In this document: positions 53,405 through 62,230 of the stretch, in pieces
Numbering within the stretch: position 1 is the stretch's first letter
Layout of the letters: every line of letters starts with the position of its first letter
From: Candidatus Accumulibacter aalborgensis
Lineage (GTDB): Bacteria > Pseudomonadota > Gammaproteobacteria > Burkholderiales > Rhodocyclaceae
Reading direction: 5' to 3'
Length of the DNA: 62,294 nt
Assembly (NCBI RefSeq): GCF_900089955.1
Contig: NZ_FLQX01000013.1
Location: 1 to 62,294, forward strand
Notes under the pieces: generated by a model
What the model was told of the DNA's origin: nothing
Seen by the model: only the letters and a program-made list of their open reading frames with translations
The model's database searches: none
Translations under genes and position numbers: made by a program

Positions 53405-54934
53405 TCACGAGTAGCTCTTGTAGAACGCCTCAGCGGTAAACTTCACAAACTCCTCCGTCTTCTGCTGACCGCGTGCAATGACCTGCCACGGCTCCAGTCG
53501 CGCTATCTCGGTCTGCAGCTCTCTCGCCGTCCTGGCGCTGCACCCGAGGATGTCTTGAACCGACGCCGCCGCAACGCCGTCGCACTGGAAGATGTACGCG
53601 AATTCCAGCAGTTCCTGAAAGTTGAAAAATTTCTGCTGGTAGTCATTGGGCGACTGGCTGGCAAAGAAGACCACGACGCCCTTGGAACGTCCCTCGCGGA
53701 TTATGCGCTGGAGGAACATGTTCTTCTGGCTGAGGTAGTTGTGGGCCTCGTCGATGACCAGGATGGTTCGAATCGTCCGCCGGCCCTCCATCACGGGGCT
53801 ATCGGGCAGAGTGGCCATCTCCTTGTAGAGCCGCTCGATGACGAGGTACGCCACCAGTTCCTTGAGGACGGGCATCGCGTGCACGTCGATCAGCATCGTT
53901 CGGTTGGCGACTCGGTCCATGGGTGCGCCTTCGCTGCCATGGCGCCAGAACAGATCGAAGTCGGACAGGTCGCGCAGGACCTCAATAAGACTGTCGTCCT
54001 TCTTGCCGTCCTCTTCGTACGCCGCTGCAGCGATTTCGAGAACGTCGGGGAAGTCCGGATAGGGCGTGGCCGAACCGGCCCGCTTGGCGTAGGCGGCCCG
54101 AATCGCCTCCGTCAGTGCGCCCTTCTGCACGACGCCAAGCTTGCTGCTGATCGACGCAAAGCTCTCGGCCTTCTCGCGCGCCGATACGTTGATCGTTTGC
54201 TCGTCGTACGCCGGCAGGATGAAAGGATTGATCGGCAGACTTTGCCCGCCTTGCAGCAAGCGGAAGGGCTGCACCCGCGCCAGTTCCAGAAACCTTGCGT
54301 TATCAACCACGTCTCCTTTGTAATCGAAGTAGACGAAGTTGATCTGGAAACTCGACTGTATACGGATGTCGGTCAGTATTTTCAGGAGAAACTGCGTCTT
54401 GCCGACGCCGGGCTTGCCCATGATGGCCAAGTGCGAATTGGCGTGTCTGGTTGTGTTGTTCAATTCCATGACCAGCTCGGTCCGCTGCAATAGAGTCCGT
54501 CCGATGAAGATATCGAGGCCACTGCCGAGTTGCTCGCGCCGGCCGGCGAATTCCACCTCATCCACCAGCCGTCGGATCAGGGCCTCGCCGCTGTCGCCGG
54601 TCTCGTGGAACATCTGCGCCAGCAGCGCAGCACCGCTGTCGACGTGGTTCTTGACGATCGATCGATTGGAGAAAAATTCATCCTCACTGAAATCCCGTTT
54701 GCCGTAGGTGTGAGCAATCAGCGTGCGTAGAAACACCTCATCTTCACCAACGAAGGTCGGCCGCTTCATTTCACCGCCGCTGAAGCTCGGGCTTTGCGCA
54801 ACCCTCGATCCCTCCTTCACCAAAGACAGCGTGAAGGCGATCCGCGCCAGCGTGGCCTTTTCCAGTTTGGTCTGGAAACGGAGCGCGCTCAGTACTTCAT
54901 CGGCCTCGCTTGAGGTGTAGAGACGGTCAGCCAT
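53405..54934 (-). CDS. dndE: DndE domain fused to a HerA/DUF87-type ATPase
   Basis: This encodes 509 residues. Residues 10-110 match DndE: LRFQTKLEKATLARIAFTLSL and SGGEMKRPTFVGEDEVFLRT; in Dnd systems DndE is a small stand-alone DNA-binding protein. From about 165 the protein is a HerA-like ATPase: Walker A GKPGVGKTQ, FVYFDYKGD, Walker B TILVIDEAHNYLS and the sensor FFASQSPNDY. Such ATPases pump DNA or remodel nuclease complexes. It overlaps the dndD end by 8 bases and is the last gene of the operon. Confidence 0.88.
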   Translation of the reverse strand: MADRLYTSSEADEVLSALRFQTKLEKATLARIAFTLSLVKEGSRVAQSPSFSGGEMKRPTFVGEDEVFLRTLIAHTYGKRDFSEDEFFSNRSIVKNHVDSGAALLAQMFHETGDSGEALIRRLVDEVEFAGRREQLGSGLDIFIGRTLLQRTELVMELNNTTRHANSHLAIMGKPGVGKTQFLLKILTDIRIQSSFQINFVYFDYKGDVVDNARFLELARVQPFRLLQGGQSLPINPFILPAYDEQTINVSAREKAESFASISSKLGVVQKGALTEAIRAAYAKRAGSATPYPDFPDVLEIAAAAYEEDGKKDDSLIEVLRDLSDFDLFWRHGSEGAPMDRVANRTMLIDVHAMPVLKELVAYLVIERLYKEMATLPDSPVMEGRRTIRTILVIDEAHNYLSQKNMFLQRIIREGRSKGVVVFFASQSPNDYQQKFFNFQELLEFAYIFQCDGVAAASVQDILGCSARTARELQTEIARLEPWQVIARGQQKTEEFVKFTAEAFYKSYS

Positions 54935-56927
54935 GGTTTTTCTCCCAGAAGTAACCCTTGCGGAACGTCGTCAGCTCCTGTCTCTGGTCGAACTCCAGAC
55001 AGCCGGCACCGCTCAGCCGTGGCTTCAGCGATCGGTAGTAGTTGGTGTCAATTTCCGTGTCGGTCGAAAGGATGACCACCTGCTCGCCAGCGTTGGGGAA
55101 ATAGTGGTTCACGATGTTGTCGCGGTGCGTGCTGTCGAGGCGCGACAGGGGGGTATCGATGATGATCGGCAGTTTGAGTTCGCTGGTTTGCGCCAGTCCC
55201 CACAATAGGGACACGGCGAACACTTCCTTTTCGCCGGCCGCCATCGACGACTTGCGAATCTGGTGGCCGTTGCGGTCAGTGATTCGGACCTCGTAGGTCT
55301 TGTCGTCGATGGTAATGTCCTTGATCAGCCCGCTACGGCTGGAAAGCAGCCGGTACATCTCGAAGGTCTTTTCCTGGAGCAGATGCACCTTGTTCTTGCG
55401 CAGGCGGACGATGAACTGATTCAGCACACTGGCGATCGCGTCGCATTCTTCGATGAATTCTGCTTTCTCCTTCGAGATGTGGTGCTTCTCGTAGAGTTTC
55501 TCGATCTCCACCTCGATGTCGCGGATCTTCTTGCCGAGCGTCAAAATGTCTTCCTCGACCAGGCGCAGTTGCTCGGTCTTGCGCCCGATCTGCGTCGAGC
55601 AACCCTCCATCATGCCCTGTAGTTCGTCAAACAAGTCACGCTCAGTGGACGTCAGCGCACCGCCTTGACCAAAGCCCTCGAACTGTCGTTTCTGTACCTC
55701 CAGACCGCGCGCTTCGTCAAGCAAGGGTTTCAGGAGAAAGACGTCACTACCGTCCAGAGCCTCCATACGGTTCAACACGCGCGCCGCGTCGCGCTCAGAA
55801 AGGTCCAGCACCTTGGTGATATCCGATCCTGGATCGCCTTCCTTGAGCAGCCGAAAGATGCGCCGCTCCAGTTCGGCCATGCGCTCGGCGGACAGCTTCT
55901 CGGTGTAGATCGGTTCTGGCTCCTCGACGACGCGAACGATCCGCTTGGCGAGCGTGGCGGCATTCTCTTTGATGGCCTCGCCGCTGGCCAACTCGCGTTC
56001 AGCGTCGATCTGCCGTCGTATGCCATCGAACACCTTGCCGGCGATGCTGAACGGCAGCACCTTCTCGCATAGACCGCGAATCTCGCTCTCTACCTGCGCG
56101 AGCCGGTTGGCGGCTGATACGCGCTTTTTCTCCTGCTCGCGCATCGCTTCCCGCGATTCCGGAGCGGCGTGGAAACTTGCCTCGAAGCGTTTCCTGGCTT
56201 CGTCCAACTGCCCCTTGAAGCCCTCCAGCTCCAAGCGCAGAGACTCCCGTTCCTGAACTTTTCGCGCCAGCTTGCTCTTCTCGCGCTTCAGTTCGCTTTG
56301 CTTGAACTCCAGATCCTCGTCGGAAATCTCGACAAAGCCTTTGCGTTCCTCCTGCTTGATGTAAATGATATCGCTGGCTAGGCGGTTGATGTACTGAATA
56401 CCCAGCGCCGCTTCCAGCGAGGATTTCAGGCGCACTTCCGAATGGTCGTCCGCCGCAATCTCCTGAATCTTTTCGCCGTCGAAGAAGAAGAATTGCGTGA
56501 TTCCCGGCGGAATCGCGGCGCGGATGAAGTCCTGCCAAATCTCCTGATTCTGCACAGACACCCGCTTGCCGTCGCGCACCACCACCAGCCGCTCGGTCAG
56601 GTCGCGCGGCCGGGGCTCGCTGATCGCGCCAGCCGTCCACGATCGCTTGACGACCAGTTCCGAGCCGTCGTCCATTTCGATGACGATCTCGAAGGCCACG
56701 TTGGCATTGCCCTTGGCTTTCTCGCGCCGGTTGATGTGGCGGAAAATGTCGTCGGCCTTGCCGCCATAAAGGCAGTAAGTCACGGCTTCCATGATCGAGG
56801 TCTTGCCCGCGCCGTTCATGCCGCCAATCAGGAAGATGCTGCGGCCGTCCTCGCCCATGGGAAAGACGATCTCGGTCGGAAACTGAAAGGACTTGTAGTT
56901 CTCGATGGTCAGCTTGCGGAACTTCAT
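54927..56927 (-). CDS. dndD: DndD-like SMC/Rad50-type ATPase
   Basis: This encodes 666 residues. It starts FRKLTIENYKSFQFPTEIVF with Walker A GGMNGAGKTSIMEAVTY. FFFFDGEKIQEIAADD is a DndD hallmark. A coiled coil spans about 200-480, and the C-terminal head has Walker B LPIIIDTPLSRLDSTHRDNI. In Dnd systems DndD provides ATPase activity and may nick DNA during phosphorothioation. Here DndA, DndB and DndC are not in the window. Start overlaps the small gene upstream as ATGA. Confidence 0.92.
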   Translation of the reverse strand: MKFRKLTIENYKSFQFPTEIVFPMGEDGRSIFLIGGMNGAGKTSIMEAVTYCLYGGKADDIFRHINRREKAKGNANVAFEIVIEMDDGSELVVKRSWTAGAISEPRPRDLTERLVVVRDGKRVSVQNQEIWQDFIRAAIPPGITQFFFFDGEKIQEIAADDHSEVRLKSSLEAALGIQYINRLASDIIYIKQEERKGFVEISDEDLEFKQSELKREKSKLARKVQERESLRLELEGFKGQLDEARKRFEASFHAAPESREAMREQEKKRVSAANRLAQVESEIRGLCEKVLPFSIAGKVFDGIRRQIDAERELASGEAIKENAATLAKRIVRVVEEPEPIYTEKLSAERMAELERRIFRLLKEGDPGSDITKVLDLSERDAARVLNRMEALDGSDVFLLKPLLDEARGLEVQKRQFEGFGQGGALTSTERDLFDELQGMMEGCSTQIGRKTEQLRLVEEDILTLGKKIRDIEVEIEKLYEKHHISKEKAEFIEECDAIASVLNQFIVRLRKNKVHLLQEKTFEMYRLLSSRSGLIKDITIDDKTYEVRITDRNGHQIRKSSMAAGEKEVFAVSLLWGLAQTSELKLPIIIDTPLSRLDSTHRDNIVNHYFPNAGEQVVILSTDTEIDTNYYRSLKPRLSGAGCLEFDQRQELTTFRKGYFWEKNHG

Positions 56928-57172
56928 TGCGCGTTCTCTTTGACGAACCGATCGATGTCTGGCCTGTCACTCATGCTGGCCGCTGGCCGCCCGCCACTGC
57001 GTGCTGGGGTGCTCTTGAGAATCTCTCGCAGCGCGTCGTACACGCCCGTGCGCCGATCCTTGAACTCGTATTCGCGCACGGCATCGAGCAGTTTCAGGAC
57101 CTTGTCCGGGCTGACGCCGTGCTGGTCGCACAGATCCGCCAACAGCCGAGAGTCCTCCAGGGTCATCTTCAT
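56924..57172 (-). CDS. Small protein typical of DNA-modification operons
   Basis: This encodes 82 residues, acidic and helical: MTLEDSRLLADLCDQHGVSP then KVLKLLDAVREYEFKDRRTGVYDALREIL. Short proteins of this type occur upstream of dndD-like genes and have been named DNA modification system-associated small proteins; that naming is from memory. Overlaps of four bases on both sides suggest fixed stoichiometry with RhuM and DndD. Confidence 0.75.
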   Translation of the reverse strand: MKMTLEDSRLLADLCDQHGVSPDKVLKLLDAVREYEFKDRRTGVYDALREILKSTPARSGGRPAASMSDRPDIDRFVKENAQ

Positions 57173-58209
57173 GATTTCTTCCTGTCGTTCGTCAATTGCT
57201 TCGTCATCCGATCGAAGTCGCTGCCGATGCGCCCCTGTTCCTCGATCCGTCGCTGGTGATACAACTCGTATTCCTTTTCCGCGCGCTGCTGGGCCATCTC
57301 ATGCGAGATCTTCCCGGCATGGGTCAGGATGTCGCGGTCGTTGATGTTCAGGAAGGCATCGAGCTTCCTGATCCAGTCTCGCATGTGCATAACGATGCGC
57401 CGCATGGCCTGGCCCTCGGCGAAGATCAGGTACTGCTCCGCCAGGTTGTTCAAGGCCCGCAGTTCGTCTTCGGCCAGATAGTTCTTGGCGATGCCGACAT
57501 CCTGCTTGCGCACCTTGGCACCGCGCCAGGTGGTCAGTCCCATATTCGGCTTTTCGGCATCGGCCCGCGCATGGACGATCTCGGCGGCAGTCTGGCCGGT
57601 GATCGCCCAATGCATTTTGTTCTGCACGGTCTTGAAGAAGGTGAGGCTGATCTCCAGCGTCGGGTCATAGTCGACGCTGGTCGCATAGATGTCGGTGATC
57701 TTCTGGTAAAAGCGCCGCTCCGAAGTGCGGATGTCCTGGATGCGGCGGGTCAGCTCTTCGAAGTAATCGAAGGGTTGCTGCGGGTTCTTCAGCCGCTCGT
57801 CGTCCAGCGTAAAGCCCTTGACGATGTATTCCTTGAGGCGCTGCGTGGCCCAGATGCGGAAGCGCGTGGCGACGTGGCTTTTCACCCGGTAGCCGACCGA
57901 GATGATCATGTCGAGGTTGTAGTGATCGACCAGGCGCTTGACCTCGCGCCCGCCCTCGGAGCGAACCAACAAGTATTTCTTGTGGGTTGCCTCCGGCGGC
58001 AGTTCGCCTTCCTCGTAGATGTGCTGAATGTGCAGGCTGACGTTCTGCTGGCTGGTCTGGAACAGCTCGGCCAGTTGTGCCTGAGGCAACCAGAGGGTTT
58101 CATCTTCCAGCCGCACGTCGATCTTGAGCTTGCCGTCTTCCGCCTCGTAAACCAGAAACTGGCCGCCGCGCTCGATCCCGTCGCTCTGGTTGGTTGGCTT
58201 CTGACTCAT
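57169..58209 (-). CDS. rhuM: RhuM family protein
   Basis: This encodes 346 residues. Typical RhuM words are LWLPQAQLAELFQTSQQNVSLHI, YNLDMIISVGYRVKSHVATRFRIWATQRL and MHWAITGQTAAEIVHARAD. The N-terminal part is a helix-turn-helix, and the C-terminal part resembles a death-on-curing/Fic-related domain. RhuM genes are often found inside type I restriction loci, as here between hsdS and the dnd genes. Biochemical role is unknown. Confidence 0.9.
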   Translation of the reverse strand: MSQKPTNQSDGIERGGQFLVYEAEDGKLKIDVRLEDETLWLPQAQLAELFQTSQQNVSLHIQHIYEEGELPPEATHKKYLLVRSEGGREVKRLVDHYNLDMIISVGYRVKSHVATRFRIWATQRLKEYIVKGFTLDDERLKNPQQPFDYFEELTRRIQDIRTSERRFYQKITDIYATSVDYDPTLEISLTFFKTVQNKMHWAITGQTAAEIVHARADAEKPNMGLTTWRGAKVRKQDVGIAKNYLAEDELRALNNLAEQYLIFAEGQAMRRIVMHMRDWIRKLDAFLNINDRDILTHAGKISHEMAQQRAEKEYELYHQRRIEEQGRIGSDFDRMTKQLTNDRKKS

Positions 58210-59576
58210 GGCTTGACGGCCGCTTCAATGAGTTGTTCGACGCGGGTCTTGGCTTCTTCGAGAAGGCGACGAGATTCGCGTTCTGCCATAGCCGCTTTAT
58301 CGTGGAGGTCGCGAACTTCCCGCTGAAATCCAGTTGGCGCGGCCCAAACAAGGAACCTTCGGATGTCTGAGGGGTAAAGCTCAAGTTGCCCCGATGTGCC
58401 GCGCTGATGCATTTCGACCTGCATCTGCCCTGCTGCGCTGTTGAGATAAAGGGACAGGAAGACCGGGTCCAGGCTTGCGGATCGGATGATGGTGACGTGG
58501 TTGTCGGGAACCGCCAACTTGTCGCCAAGATACGGCGCGGCGCGCCCAAGAGTTCCTCGTCCGGTGCCGTTCAAGAGGGTATCACCGAAGCGAATCTGCA
58601 AATTAGCGTCCGGATTTGCCAATGCAAAGCGATTGTCCTCTTCAATCACGCGGTTCTGCTGAACGTGTTTCGAGTTGATGACAGGGAGCCCCGTCGTTAC
58701 GTAGGCGGGTTGTCTACCTCGCTGGCAGAAGTCAAGGTGTCCGGAAAGAGGCGACAGAGCCAAGCCTGCCGGCAATCCACCTCTGAACGCCCGAAATGCA
58801 GGGAAGTAGTGTTCGGCGTCCAAACGTCGAGACTCTTCAACCTCGCTCAACTGCGCGGTGTAGCCCACTGGTTTGTGAAGAGCCAGCTTATCCAGGCCAA
58901 GCGCGGCTTCAATCATGTGCCGCGCTGAAGAAGAGGCCGCGACACTGGCACGCAAGGCACGGTAGTAACGCCGAACCATGTCGCCAACGATTTCTTGCAC
59001 TTGGCGTTCGGGGACATATACCTTGATTTTGCGCGTACGTTCCAGGGTCAACTGGTATTGAATCGTCAGTTCACGCTCTCGCATCAACTGATCGAAACCG
59101 TGCCGGGATCTGAGAAAGGCAATCAGGTAGTACGGGTCGATGACGCTTTGGTCAATTTGCGACATTCCGAGTACCGTGCGAGTCATTGCAGAAGGCGGCA
59201 TGTCCTCGGCCAGAAGTGCTGCATAGCAGGGCGTGCCAACCTTACTAATCACGACATCACCGGCATGCAGGCTGCGAATCGTTGAATGTTCATCCGCGAA
59301 AGATGCAGGAAGCCGGGCGAACGGTTGATCCGGTGAAATGAGAGGAAAATCGACGATGTCCACACAGCGAAGGAATGGCACTCCATCCGATGCGTAGAGA
59401 TGCGTTGCGGCTGGATAGAAGGCGCTGCATGAAAACTGCCCGAGCTTTCGCAGCGGGAGTGTCGGCACGGCACACAGATCTGCTTCCACTCGTGTATGAC
59501 TCGGCAAGAAATACTCCGGATCAGAGCGCGAGTGGCTATAGAGTTCGCTGGTCATCGCGGTCATGCAGATGGCCAT
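58206..59576 (-). CDS. hsdS: Type I restriction-modification specificity subunit HsdS
   Basis: This encodes 456 residues, with two target recognition domains. The first half includes DGVPFLRCVDIVDFPLI and GDVVISKVGTPCYAALL, ending with QEIVGDMVRRYYRALRASV as the central helix. The second half includes GLPVINSKHVQQNRVI, GDTLLNGTGRGTLGRAA and a C-terminal coiled coil (RESRRLLEEAKTRVEQLIEAA). It sets the DNA sequence modified by the methylase encoded just upstream. It overlaps that gene by one base and rhuM by four. Confidence 0.9.
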   Translation of the reverse strand: MAICMTAMTSELYSHSRSDPEYFLPSHTRVEADLCAVPTLPLRKLGQFSCSAFYPAATHLYASDGVPFLRCVDIVDFPLISPDQPFARLPASFADEHSTIRSLHAGDVVISKVGTPCYAALLAEDMPPSAMTRTVLGMSQIDQSVIDPYYLIAFLRSRHGFDQLMRERELTIQYQLTLERTRKIKVYVPERQVQEIVGDMVRRYYRALRASVAASSSARHMIEAALGLDKLALHKPVGYTAQLSEVEESRRLDAEHYFPAFRAFRGGLPAGLALSPLSGHLDFCQRGRQPAYVTTGLPVINSKHVQQNRVIEEDNRFALANPDANLQIRFGDTLLNGTGRGTLGRAAPYLGDKLAVPDNHVTIIRSASLDPVFLSLYLNSAAGQMQVEMHQRGTSGQLELYPSDIRRFLVWAAPTGFQREVRDLHDKAAMAERESRRLLEEAKTRVEQLIEAAVKP

Positions 59577-62146
59577 TATTGCTGCCCCCAGAAATTGAAC
59601 TTCTGCTCCTGAGCGAAGCGCACAAACGCCTCCGCCACGCAGAGCTGATCGTCGGAAATTCCGGCCGCGTCGGCCAGGTCGGCGGCGCGCAAGTCGTAGT
59701 TGACCAAATCCTGATCGATGACGAGTTGCCCTTCCTGCGGGTGACCATCGGGGAATTCGACGAGGCTGCCTTGCTCATCGAGCGTGTACTTGTAGTCGCC
59801 GGAGTTGTCCTTACCGCCGCGCTCGCTGACCGCCATGAAAATCGGGTAATCGAGTTGCTTGGCCACTTCGGCGGCGATCCAGCGCTCCTTGAGCGTGCCG
59901 ATCAGTTCCTCGTCGGCCAGCACCAGCTCCAGCTTGCCGCGATTGCTGAGCAGCTTCAGATCGATCTCGGCCCGTGGAATCTGCTTTTCGAGCGCCTTGA
60001 TTTCGGCCTTGATCACTTTCTGCTGATCTTTCTGTGTGTTTTTGAGCTTCTGCACGCTGACCTTGTAGGCCAGCCGGACCTCCTGAAGCTGCAAGCGCAG
60101 TGCGCTCTTCACCCCCGTCCATTGCGTGGTCAGTGCTTCGATTTCCTGGGTTTGTTTCTGCGTCAGCGCTTCGGCATCGCTGTCGAGGTCCATCAGCTTC
60201 TGTTTGGCGCTCAGCAGCGCGGCTTTGAGGCTGCGCAGCTTTTCTTCGGCCGCCGCCAGGCGGTCCTCGGCAGGGGATGCCTTCTCGCTTCCTTCATCGC
60301 TCTCTTCCTCGCCGTTGGCCGTAGCTTCGTCCGATTCAGCCTCGCTGAAGTTTTCGGCGATGAGGTCGGCGACGGCCTCGGGGATGGCGTCATCCGGAAC
60401 GTCGTCGTCGCCGTCATGGGCCGCCAGCAGCCGGGCTTTCTTGAGAATCCATTCGCGGATGAAGGCCAGCGAGGAGTTGTTGAACTTGCCCTGCGGCAAC
60501 ACGATGGCGGCACGGCCGCCGGGCTTGAGCATCTTCAGGATGCGCTCGATGAAGAGCACGTCGCGCTCTTCCTTCGCTGCCTTGTCGTCGCCGGCGCGCC
60601 TGATGGCCCGCTTGGCCAGCTCGTAGTGTGCGAGCATCTTGCGGTCCTTCATTTCTCCCGCAAAAGGAGGATTGGCGAGGATCACGTCGAATCTCAGTTC
60701 ATCGAAATACTCCCAGGCCTTGTCGTCGTCCTTGAGCGTTTCGCCTTCGGGGATCTTCTTCGCTGTCAGCCTGGCTTGCCGCAGCCCGGACATCAGCGCC
60801 TGACCGGAGGCGTTTTCGTACCAGGTACGCGGATCGAGGCTGCTGACATCCGGGCCGAAGATGTTGGTGTGGCCATCGCCGGCAATGAGCATCAGCGCGC
60901 GTGAAGTCTTGGCCGCCCGTTGCTCGAAGTCGATTCCCCAAAGATATTTGGCCGCATAGCGGTGTTTGCGCAGCTCGCGCTGCTCGTTGTCGTTGGCGGG
61001 GTAGCACCAGTCCATGGCGTGCAGCAGGAATCCGCCCGAACCACAGGCCGGGTCCATGACATACTCGCTGCGTTTCGGGTTGAGCATGCGTACGCACATC
61101 TCGACCACCTGGCGCGGCGTGAAAAACTGCCCTTTCTTCTTCTTCGCCTCGGTCGGCAGCAGGTATTCGAAAGCGTCATCCATGATGCGCAAGTTCGAGC
61201 CCATCAGGCGCACGCCCTCGATCGGGCCGACGCATACCTGCAGGTGCCGCTTGGCCAGCTCGATGTCCTCGCCTTCCTTGAAAATCCCCGGCCACTCTTC
61301 GCAGGCTTTGTGGAAAAGGTTATTGATGCGGTCGTAGGTAATTTCAGGATCAAGGGCCTTGCGGAACTCGACGACCTTGTTCGGCCGGTTCTCCAGAGCC
61401 TGTTTCTCGTCCCAGATCTTGGCGAAGATCAGCTTGAAGATTTCGTTGAACTCGTCCTTGCCGCTATCCGCCAGCACCAGCTCTTCGAGGCCCTGAATGA
61501 TCTTCTTGAAGTTGAAGTTCTTGCCCAGTTGCAGGAGCGTCTTGCTGGCTTCGAGTACATCCCTGGGCGCTTCGTCGCGCCTCGGGATGTCGAACAGGGT
61601 GTCGTCGAACTGCCCTGGGTAGGGCCGGTAAAGGATGACCCGGTCATCACCGTTGGACCACACCGCTACCGGCGCGCCCTTGGCGTTCATGTAACTCCTG
61701 AGCTGCTCAATGCCGTCCCGGCGGTTGGGCCGCTTGCACTCGACGATGATCTTTGGTGTCACTTTGGTCGAGTCGGAGTAGACGATGATGTCCGCCGCCT
61801 TGGTGCCTACTTCGGTGCCGAACTGCACCCCTTTTTCCAGATCGATTTCGTTGGCCCGGTAGCCGTACTGGTGGATCAGTTTGTAGACCCATAGCTGGCG
61901 GACGATCTCTTCGGGTGCTGACTTGCCCCCTTCAGCATAGACCTGCACCTCTTCATTGCCCGTCGAAAACGGGATGAGGCTCTTCAGGTAGTACTTGGTT
62001 TTCCCTGCATCCTTGCCGGTGGCTACCACCTTGGGATAGATCGTGAGGACTTCGTGGATGGGTTTGCCGAGGTTTTCGAACTCGGTGAGCTCGAACTTGA
62101 TGCCGGGCTCCTTGAAGATGCGGTCGATCAGTTCTTTGGTGTTCAT
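59576..62146 (-). CDS. hsdM: HsdR-N nuclease-like domain fused to N6-adenine methylase (HsdM)
   Basis: This encodes 856 residues from the ATG at 62146; an ATG at 62230 with GGGGG upstream would add 28 Arg/Pro-rich residues. Residues about 60-190 resemble the HsdR N-terminal domain, with the PD-(D/E)xK pattern ADIIVYSDS and IIVECKRPNRRDG. The methylase core has DPACGSGGFLLHAMDW (AdoMet) and ILANPPFAGE (catalytic NPPF). After KKARLLA the segment with a KTS(V/I)LF strand expected in HsdM is absent; an acidic linker and coiled coil (about 600-750) follow, then DYPIFMAVSERGGKDNSGDY. It would methylate adenines with HsdS. Confidence 0.85.
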   Translation of the reverse strand: MNTKELIDRIFKEPGIKFELTEFENLGKPIHEVLTIYPKVVATGKDAGKTKYYLKSLIPFSTGNEEVQVYAEGGKSAPEEIVRQLWVYKLIHQYGYRANEIDLEKGVQFGTEVGTKAADIIVYSDSTKVTPKIIVECKRPNRRDGIEQLRSYMNAKGAPVAVWSNGDDRVILYRPYPGQFDDTLFDIPRRDEAPRDVLEASKTLLQLGKNFNFKKIIQGLEELVLADSGKDEFNEIFKLIFAKIWDEKQALENRPNKVVEFRKALDPEITYDRINNLFHKACEEWPGIFKEGEDIELAKRHLQVCVGPIEGVRLMGSNLRIMDDAFEYLLPTEAKKKKGQFFTPRQVVEMCVRMLNPKRSEYVMDPACGSGGFLLHAMDWCYPANDNEQRELRKHRYAAKYLWGIDFEQRAAKTSRALMLIAGDGHTNIFGPDVSSLDPRTWYENASGQALMSGLRQARLTAKKIPEGETLKDDDKAWEYFDELRFDVILANPPFAGEMKDRKMLAHYELAKRAIRRAGDDKAAKEERDVLFIERILKMLKPGGRAAIVLPQGKFNNSSLAFIREWILKKARLLAAHDGDDDVPDDAIPEAVADLIAENFSEAESDEATANGEEESDEGSEKASPAEDRLAAAEEKLRSLKAALLSAKQKLMDLDSDAEALTQKQTQEIEALTTQWTGVKSALRLQLQEVRLAYKVSVQKLKNTQKDQQKVIKAEIKALEKQIPRAEIDLKLLSNRGKLELVLADEELIGTLKERWIAAEVAKQLDYPIFMAVSERGGKDNSGDYKYTLDEQGSLVEFPDGHPQEGQLVIDQDLVNYDLRAADLADAAGISDDQLCVAEAFVRFAQEQKFNFWGQQ

Positions 62147-62230
62147 GCGGCTTTCTGATGGCTCGTGGCGATTTCTTCTTGATGGGTGTTGGCGGCTTCG
62201 TGGCTTGCGAGCGGGTATCATTTCGGCCAT

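Follow-up and report, generated by a model that had tools for sequence, protein, structure and literature searches.

Six overlapping genes at the end of a contig

The contig NZ_FLQX01000013.1 of Candidatus Accumulibacter aalborgensis (assembly GCF_900089955.1) was analyzed over its entire length of 62,294 bases, referred to here as the window. Near one end it carries six minus-strand open reading frames (ORFs) in which an adenine methyltransferase (MTase) with a fused nuclease domain and an HsdS-type specificity subunit precede the Dnd proteins DndD and DndE-HerA. The ORFs overlap by 1, 4, 4, 4, and 8 bases, as an earlier sequence-only reading of this DNA had described, and our domain searches support the family names that it gave. 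The features of the locus are as follows, where SP (Sp-DndD) is a small protein encoded upstream of DndD and X is our label for a further protein family of the related loci.

59576..62230, minus strand: fusion of an HSDR_N_2 nuclease domain of the PD-(D/E)XK type (PF13588) with an N6-adenine MTase (PF02384 N6_Mtase, 105.1 bits)
60421..60422, minus strand: junction of a 168-base in-frame deletion in the MTase, 56 residues being gone after residue 603
58206..59576, minus strand: HsdS-type specificity subunit (PADLOC Specificity_I, 1.4e-62; Pfam gives no match at E 0.01)
57169..58209, minus strand: RhuM (PF13310), an optional cargo gene between HsdS and SP
56924..57172, minus strand: SP, 82 amino acids (PF20306), the last 16 of which are a remnant of X
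56924..56974, minus strand: remnant of X, a predicted modified-DNA reader, from alignment with loci L038, L039, L041, and L043
54927..56927, minus strand: DndD, an SMC/Rad50-like ATPase without a CxC hook (TIGR03185, 364.6 bits; cut-off, 245.85)
53405..54934, minus strand: DndE fused to a HerA/FtsK-type ATPase (PF08870, 42.7 bits; cut-off, 25), with a HerA domain resembling that of DndH

The MTase probably starts at 62146 (MNTKELIDR), which matches the start residue of its relatives. Profile searches of the six genes find no DndA, DndB, or DndC, and Pfam finds no HsdR-type superfamily 2 (SF2) translocase domain in them. The operon had also been described as closed on its right-hand side. This is wrong because the window is the whole contig, which stops 64 bases beyond the start of the MTase ORF, the first gene; the window alone therefore leaves room for further genes upstream. 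No overlap of this contig end with other contigs of the genome was found.

In related loci, the methyltransferase and HsdS occupy the place of DndC

In a 369-genome class sample, close relatives of DndE-HerA occur in genomes G546 (78%), G497 (69%), and G367 (a broken copy), in addition to the window's own genome. Scanning genome contigs with a three-sequence DndE-HerA alignment (A1), we retrieved 65 loci with this DndE-HerA, at 63-93% identity. DndD is present in 57 of them (six-frame searches with hidden Markov models [HMMs]), and the 38 loci in which DndD is present and at least 7 kb lie upstream of DndE-HerA were treated as assessable. The adenine MTase is found in 31 of these 38 loci, HsdS in 32, both in 30, SP in 36, X in 27, and RhuM, whole or in part, in 15 (the counts include broken or partial genes). 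Wherever MTase, HsdS, and SP occur together (30 loci), the genes run MTase-HsdS-SP-DndD-DndE-HerA. Upstream of SP, DndD, and DndE-HerA, the adenine MTase and HsdS stand where phosphorothioate-type loci have DndC, the sulfur-adding enzyme.

Going by their record titles, the 38 of the 65 loci that entered our DndD tree belong to ten phyla: Pseudomonadota, Thermodesulfobacteriota, Bacillota, Bacteroidota, Nitrospirota, Planctomycetota, Kiritimatiellota, Myxococcota, Chrysiogenota, and Cloacimonadota. Two further titles read Acidobacteriaceae (L042) and Anaerolineaceae (L067). Neither of two scans of viral contigs, one with a single DndD and one with A1, returned a relative, and E. coli genomes gave no match. 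DndD relatives occur in 31 plasmid records and relatives in 4 phage records, all at <60% identity. Eight of the 31 plasmid records were inspected: six have an annotated dndC, one (L107, unannotated) has a PAPS-reductase gene, and one (L105) has no annotated dndC beside dndD-dndE. In L105, a Picosynechococcus PCC 8807 plasmid, a DUF2442 gene lies just upstream of dndD-dndE; another DUF2442 gene precedes SP at L085:5712-5975. Two Trichormus variabilis plasmids (L023 and L024) carry HsdS and an MTase with 67% identity to that of the window, and neither plasmid has a DndD match; the annotated HsdS is shorter in strain 0441.

Several copies are incomplete. Only a fragment of the MTase is present in L038, and the gene is split in L040, L065, and L093; HsdS is represented by half a gene in L045, L049, and L084 and is split in L042, L044, and L089. 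Loci L037 (the G367 copy), L091, L093, and L099 are broken by frameshifts or reduced to fragments, through decay or poor assembly, and in L047 (8089-10008) the N terminus of the MTase and the later part of DndD form a single ORF, through a deletion or an assembly chimera. In L060, from Methylotuvimicrobium buryatense 5G, the MTase, HsdS, SP, X, DndD, and DndE-HerA ORFs all have their full length and RhuM is truncated. An Mrr-type restriction endonuclease gene (Mrr_N plus Mrr_cat) lies directly upstream of the MTase at L073:2788-3702. In L039 (11608-12870) and L041 (10300-11553), DndE-HerA is followed immediately by an opposite-strand gene that looks integrase-like by eye, which hints at a genomic island.

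The genes are inherited together and retain their catalytic motifs

Pairwise distances were compared across the 20 loci, including the window, in which all four proteins (MTase, HsdS, DndD, and DndE-HerA) are long enough. Distances of the MTase correlate with those of DndD (r = 0.91) about as closely as those of DndD do with those of DndE-HerA (r = 0.92), and the correlation between HsdS and DndD is 0.42. Mean pairwise identity is 0.72 for the MTase, 0.70 for DndD, 0.73 for DndE-HerA, and 0.30 for HsdS, the last being hypervariable, as a specificity subunit should be. By nonsynonymous divergence (dN), L039 is the nearest relative of the window for DndD, DndE-HerA, RhuM, and the MTase; the window's HsdS, however, is closer to that of L043 (dN 0.18) than to that of L039 (dN 0.47), with the incomplete HsdS of L038 left out, and therefore the specificity subunit has been exchanged. 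In L049 and L084, half of HsdS and the MTase are joined as one ORF.

In a tree of 50 DndD proteins, all 39 rows of the window type fall into a single clade (SH-aLRT support, 99), and four rows from phosphorothioate (PT)-type loci with DndE-HerA form another (support, 100). Some of the 39 rows come from loci that are not assessable upstream, and L078-L080 are also included, as a single group within the clade.

All 26 MTases compared retain the nuclease residues D147, E164, and K166 and the NPPF motif, and every DndD (39 of 39) and DndE-HerA (49 of 49) has the P-loop lysine and the Walker B aspartate. Ratios of dN to synonymous divergence (dS) are 0.03-0.08 for DndD and DndE-HerA across four loci, with dS often >1. 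Because the motif C-x(1,2)-C is missing from all 39 DndD proteins, they are not of the CxC kind. Among solved structures, the closest relative of the MTase is RM.BsaXI (7.6e-24), DndD has a weak match to Rad50, and DndE-HerA matches the DptH/DndH chain 7es4.

DndC is missing from the loci, and SP resembles its C-terminal tail

The sequence-only reading had seen no DndC in the window, and we found none in any of the 65 relative loci with a DndC HMM built on 5 sequences. All 7 control loci were matched by this HMM; 5 of them had served to train it, and the other 2 (L012 and L014) had not. The arrangement that the reading had named as evidence against itself, dndC in the same operon, was therefore seen in no relative. 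A blastp search of the 65 loci with a single DndA query gave no match; according to the main text of PMC10853773, IscS encoded elsewhere can stand in for DndA.

Beyond the loci, TIGR03183 (DndC) scores above its cut-off in 4 of 24 genomes in one search and in 2 of 42 in a second. With one genome common to both sets, this makes 6 of 65 genomes: that of the window and those with L044, L050, L093, L078, and L094. The other 59, including the two-contig G546, have no DndC above the curated cut-off, though many are incomplete metagenome-assembled genomes (MAGs); the L099 genome has a match of 176.8 bits, below the cut-off. No match above the cut-off was found in 14 control genomes. The DndC of the window's genome (379.6 bits) lies on contig C119 in a PT-type locus of dndC, SP, dndD, and dndE-HerA, the last two being ~26-31% identical to those of the window. 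In this C119 locus (L011, 9325-16080), a 170-amino-acid gene and then a 432-amino-acid gene follow, and L012 has two genes of similar size after DndE-HerA.

Judged by its profile matches, SP resembles the C-terminal tail of DndC, because most matches to TIGR03183 below the cut-off (17 of 17 in the first search and 16 of 20 in the second) cover the end of the profile, positions about 361-447. In G546, the DndC-model match below the cut-off is the SP gene. The PT-type loci L011-L014 read dndC-SP-dndD-dndE-HerA, with SP located between dndC and dndD.

Protein X is a predicted reader of modified DNA

X is a protein of ~210 residues that is encoded between SP and DndD, just after DndE-HerA, or in both places, except in L081, where it precedes the MTase, and in L070 and L071, where it precedes SP. 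Three copies each are present in L058, L083, and L087. At E 0.01, Mrr_N is matched in 26 of 51 members and RAMA in 9 of 51; RAMA scores above its curated cut-off in L050 and L070 and just below it in L081. In the AlphaFold model, the N-terminal part is helical and the C-terminal part is a winged helix predicted with confidence (overall predicted template modeling score, 0.42). A fold search with this model returned nothing below E 0.001, the top matches being mostly winged helices and DpnI ranking 39th. RAMA and Mrr_N are families of modified-DNA readers, and X is a predicted reader of this kind.

The copy in the window may be inactive

Relative to L038, L039, L041, and L043, the window has an insertion of 7 bases through which SP continues into X; only the first residues of X are left, the rest being deleted. 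We considered the 82-amino-acid protein as a new family and rejected this assignment, as it consists of SP and the X remnant. In the MTase, a 56-residue block that is filled in 23 of 23 other sequences is deleted. Because both X and this conserved block are lost, the window copy may be inactive and is probably a weakened or dead methylase, unless the losses reflect an assembly error. X was not found elsewhere in the host genome, in a search that had no positive control.

Cargo genes and other upstream methylases

The slot between HsdS and SP holds RhuM in some loci and, in others, DarT with a macro-domain gene (L051), YhcG (L052), or DUF4258 (L060). By BLAST clusters, with Pfam matches for L051 only, a macro-domain-type gene occurs in L051, L055, L058, and L084 and a DarT-type gene in L051, L058, and L084. 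Gaps of -6 to 6 bases leave no room for cargo in L041, L042, L056, L057, L065, L066, L073, L081, and L100. In L067, an N6_N4 MTase and a TdeIII restriction enzyme are encoded upstream of SP-DndD-DndE-HerA; in L085, an N6_N4 MTase and a ResIII-domain gene stand there in a type III-like arrangement. Each of these arrangements is known from a single locus with a split DndD frame, and the upstream genes may be chance neighbors in a defense island.

A candidate restriction system with a Dnd-type motor

Gene content, gene order, conserved motifs, co-inheritance, and the lack of DndC are established for this family of loci. From these sequence data we propose, with a probability of about 0.5, that the loci encode a methylation-marked, type I-like restriction system in which DndD and DndE-HerA would be the motor and the nuclease is fused to the methylase. 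Given the protein families and the variability of HsdS, MTase-HsdS would place N6-methyladenine as a mark on self DNA, at a site that HsdS specifies. By homology and gene order, SP would dock the modification enzyme onto DndD, and DndD, as an SMC-like ATPase, together with DndE-HerA, as a HerA-type pump, might scan, loop, or pull DNA. Unmarked sites, reported by HsdS or by the RAMA/Mrr_N X proteins, would then be cut by the fused PD-(D/E)XK domain. The task of HsdR would thus be divided, with the nuclease on the methylase and the motor drawn from DndD and HerA.

The sequence-only reading had likewise suggested that DndD and DndE use adenine methylation instead of phosphorothioation. The absence of DndC from the relatives, the fixed order with the methylase pair, and the predicted modified-DNA readers nearby support this suggestion; the DndC elsewhere in the host genome and the loss of conserved sequence from the window's MTase speak against it.

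Several observations weigh against the proposed restriction system. The host genome encodes DndC on contig C119, and the window copy is without X and without 56 conserved MTase residues. This MTase is absent from 7 of the 38 assessable loci: L051 and L090 keep scraps of HsdS, L087 keeps a 33-residue scrap of the MTase, L067 and L085 have other methylases, L078 has none, and L102 is a fragment. X was undetected in 11 of the 38, where divergent copies could be missed, and all four Mrr_N matches whose scores were inspected (including those in L041, L083, and L087) fall below the Pfam cut-off. The best Protein Data Bank match covers the methylase part of the MTase only. The structure model of the MTase is poor (pLDDT, 57; too poor for a fold search), so the nuclease call draws on Pfam and the motif, and a putative C-terminal coiled coil is seen only in that model. 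Long branches divide the groups of the DndD tree, and such joins may be false according to the program's warning. Many loci are MAG contigs, and therefore single taxonomic placements may be wrong.

Several rival explanations were weighed. DndD and DndE-HerA, with SP, could act on the modification side, loading MTase-HsdS onto the chromosome or guiding it there, or could block phage replication without cutting, and the PD-(D/E)XK domain would then not be the effector. Such a role would fit the retention of the DndC-tail-like SP and the description in PMC10853773, in its main text, of DndD and DndE in the modification module with DndFGH as a separate module; we consider it unlikely, given that all 26 MTases have the nuclease D, E, and K and that no other nuclease gene was seen to be common to many loci. 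Alternatively, a stand-alone type IIB/IIG-like MTase-HsdS might merely neighbor an orphan SP-DndD-DndE-HerA in defense islands. The match to RM.BsaXI over the methylase part, the Trichormus plasmid that has MTase (67%) and HsdS and is absent from the 31 plasmid records with DndD matches, and L078 and L080, which have SP-DndD-DndE-HerA with no methylase gene seen alongside, all favor two independent neighbors. The explanation is nevertheless distinctly unlikely in view of the fixed order in 30 of 30 loci, the distance correlation of 0.91, and the overlapping reading frames in the window. Moreover, L078-L080 are nested inside the clade, and therefore methylase loss is a simple reading of these loci, and both genomes of the 369-genome sample that have the MTase (one being the window's) also carry the clade's DndE-HerA.

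It would be very unlikely that the core senses invading DNA in an abortive system whose effectors are the cargo proteins: cargo does occupy the HsdS-SP slot, with RhuM, whole or in part, in 15 of the 38 loci, DarT/macro, YhcG, and DUF4258 in single loci, and relatives of some of these in others, but nine loci have no room for it there. Phosphorothioation with DndC supplied in trans has some basis in the DndC on C119 of the window's own genome. We hold it to be barely credible, because the dndC on C119 has its own SP, DndD, and DndE-HerA and 59 of the 65 genomes have no DndC above the cut-off, with the caveat about incomplete MAGs given above.

The proposed restriction system could be one case of a wider arrangement. 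The partners upstream of SP-DndD-DndE-HerA are DndC in PT loci, MTase-HsdS in most loci, and other MTases in L067 and L085, which would amount to one motor serving many marks. We tentatively raise the possibility, which we regard as doubtful, that SP-DndD-DndE-HerA is a modification-agnostic plug-in motor that docks via a DndC-tail-like adaptor and attacks unmarked DNA.

Comparison with known systems

The type IIB layout has nuclease and methylase in one chain with a separate S subunit. The window shares this layout with the type IIB enzyme BsaXI by domains and motifs, in addition to the methylase match, and differs in the linked motor genes DndD and DndE-HerA. With type I restriction-modification systems it has the N6 MTase and HsdS in common, and the HsdR SF2 motor is absent from the six genes. 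The MTase and HsdS are also related to those of MADS, the methylation-associated defense system (253.6 bits with the MADS2 model and 66.1 bits with MADS5), and there is a HerA-like match (PADLOC mad8, 70.8 bits); however, these MADS2 and MADS5 scores fall well short of the NCBIfam cut-offs of 720 and 400, and DndD and SP are present here. The match of DndE-HerA to the DndH models is confined to positions 1224-1713, and the N-terminal domains of DndH, as in DndFGH, are not found. The neighborhood may already be shown by Krishnan et al. 2020, a paper on ABC ATPases.

The main text of Rakesh et al. 2024 (PMC10853773) describes DndE-HerA beside DndD, DndDE in the absence of DndC, and CxC-DndE with cytosine methylases; HsdS, HsdR, and RhuM have 0 occurrences in it. 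In L107, the order is PAPS-reductase gene, 70-amino-acid ORF, DndD-like gene, DndE-HerA gene. With the Dnd PT subset that has DndE-HerA (PMC10853773), of which L011-L014 are examples, the window type shares the DndD and DndE-HerA pair preceded by SP. It differs in having the adenine MTase and HsdS in the place of DndC, the X family, and a separate DndD clade; the window itself has the DndD and DndE features of the subset and no DndC in the locus, although the contig end hides what lies upstream. The CxC ATPase-DndE or PbeABCD-like systems (PMC10853773) likewise have base methylation in place of phosphorothioation around an ABC ATPase-DndE core. In contrast to them, the DndD here is of a type without the CxC hook (0 of 39), the methylase is an adenine methylase with a separate HsdS, HerA is fused to DndE, and no HKD-SF2 gene is present among the six genes of the window. 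PMC5608340 was considered as a description of the system and rejected, as its text reports no Dnd homologs.

We did not find the pairing of an adenine methylase with DndD/DndE-HerA in any of the open-license papers searched, judged by titles, abstract openings, and text passages. Taken with the sequence comparisons, this suggests that the pairing with Dnd-type motors may represent an undescribed kind of anti-virus restriction system. If so, the DndD/DndE-HerA machine would not be tied to phosphorothioate chemistry, and the loci would offer a natural test of the roles of DndD and DndE, in which a similar motor operates with the sulfur enzyme swapped out. They would also represent a type I-like restriction system, occurring across phyla, in which an SMC/HerA pair serves as the motor in place of HsdR.

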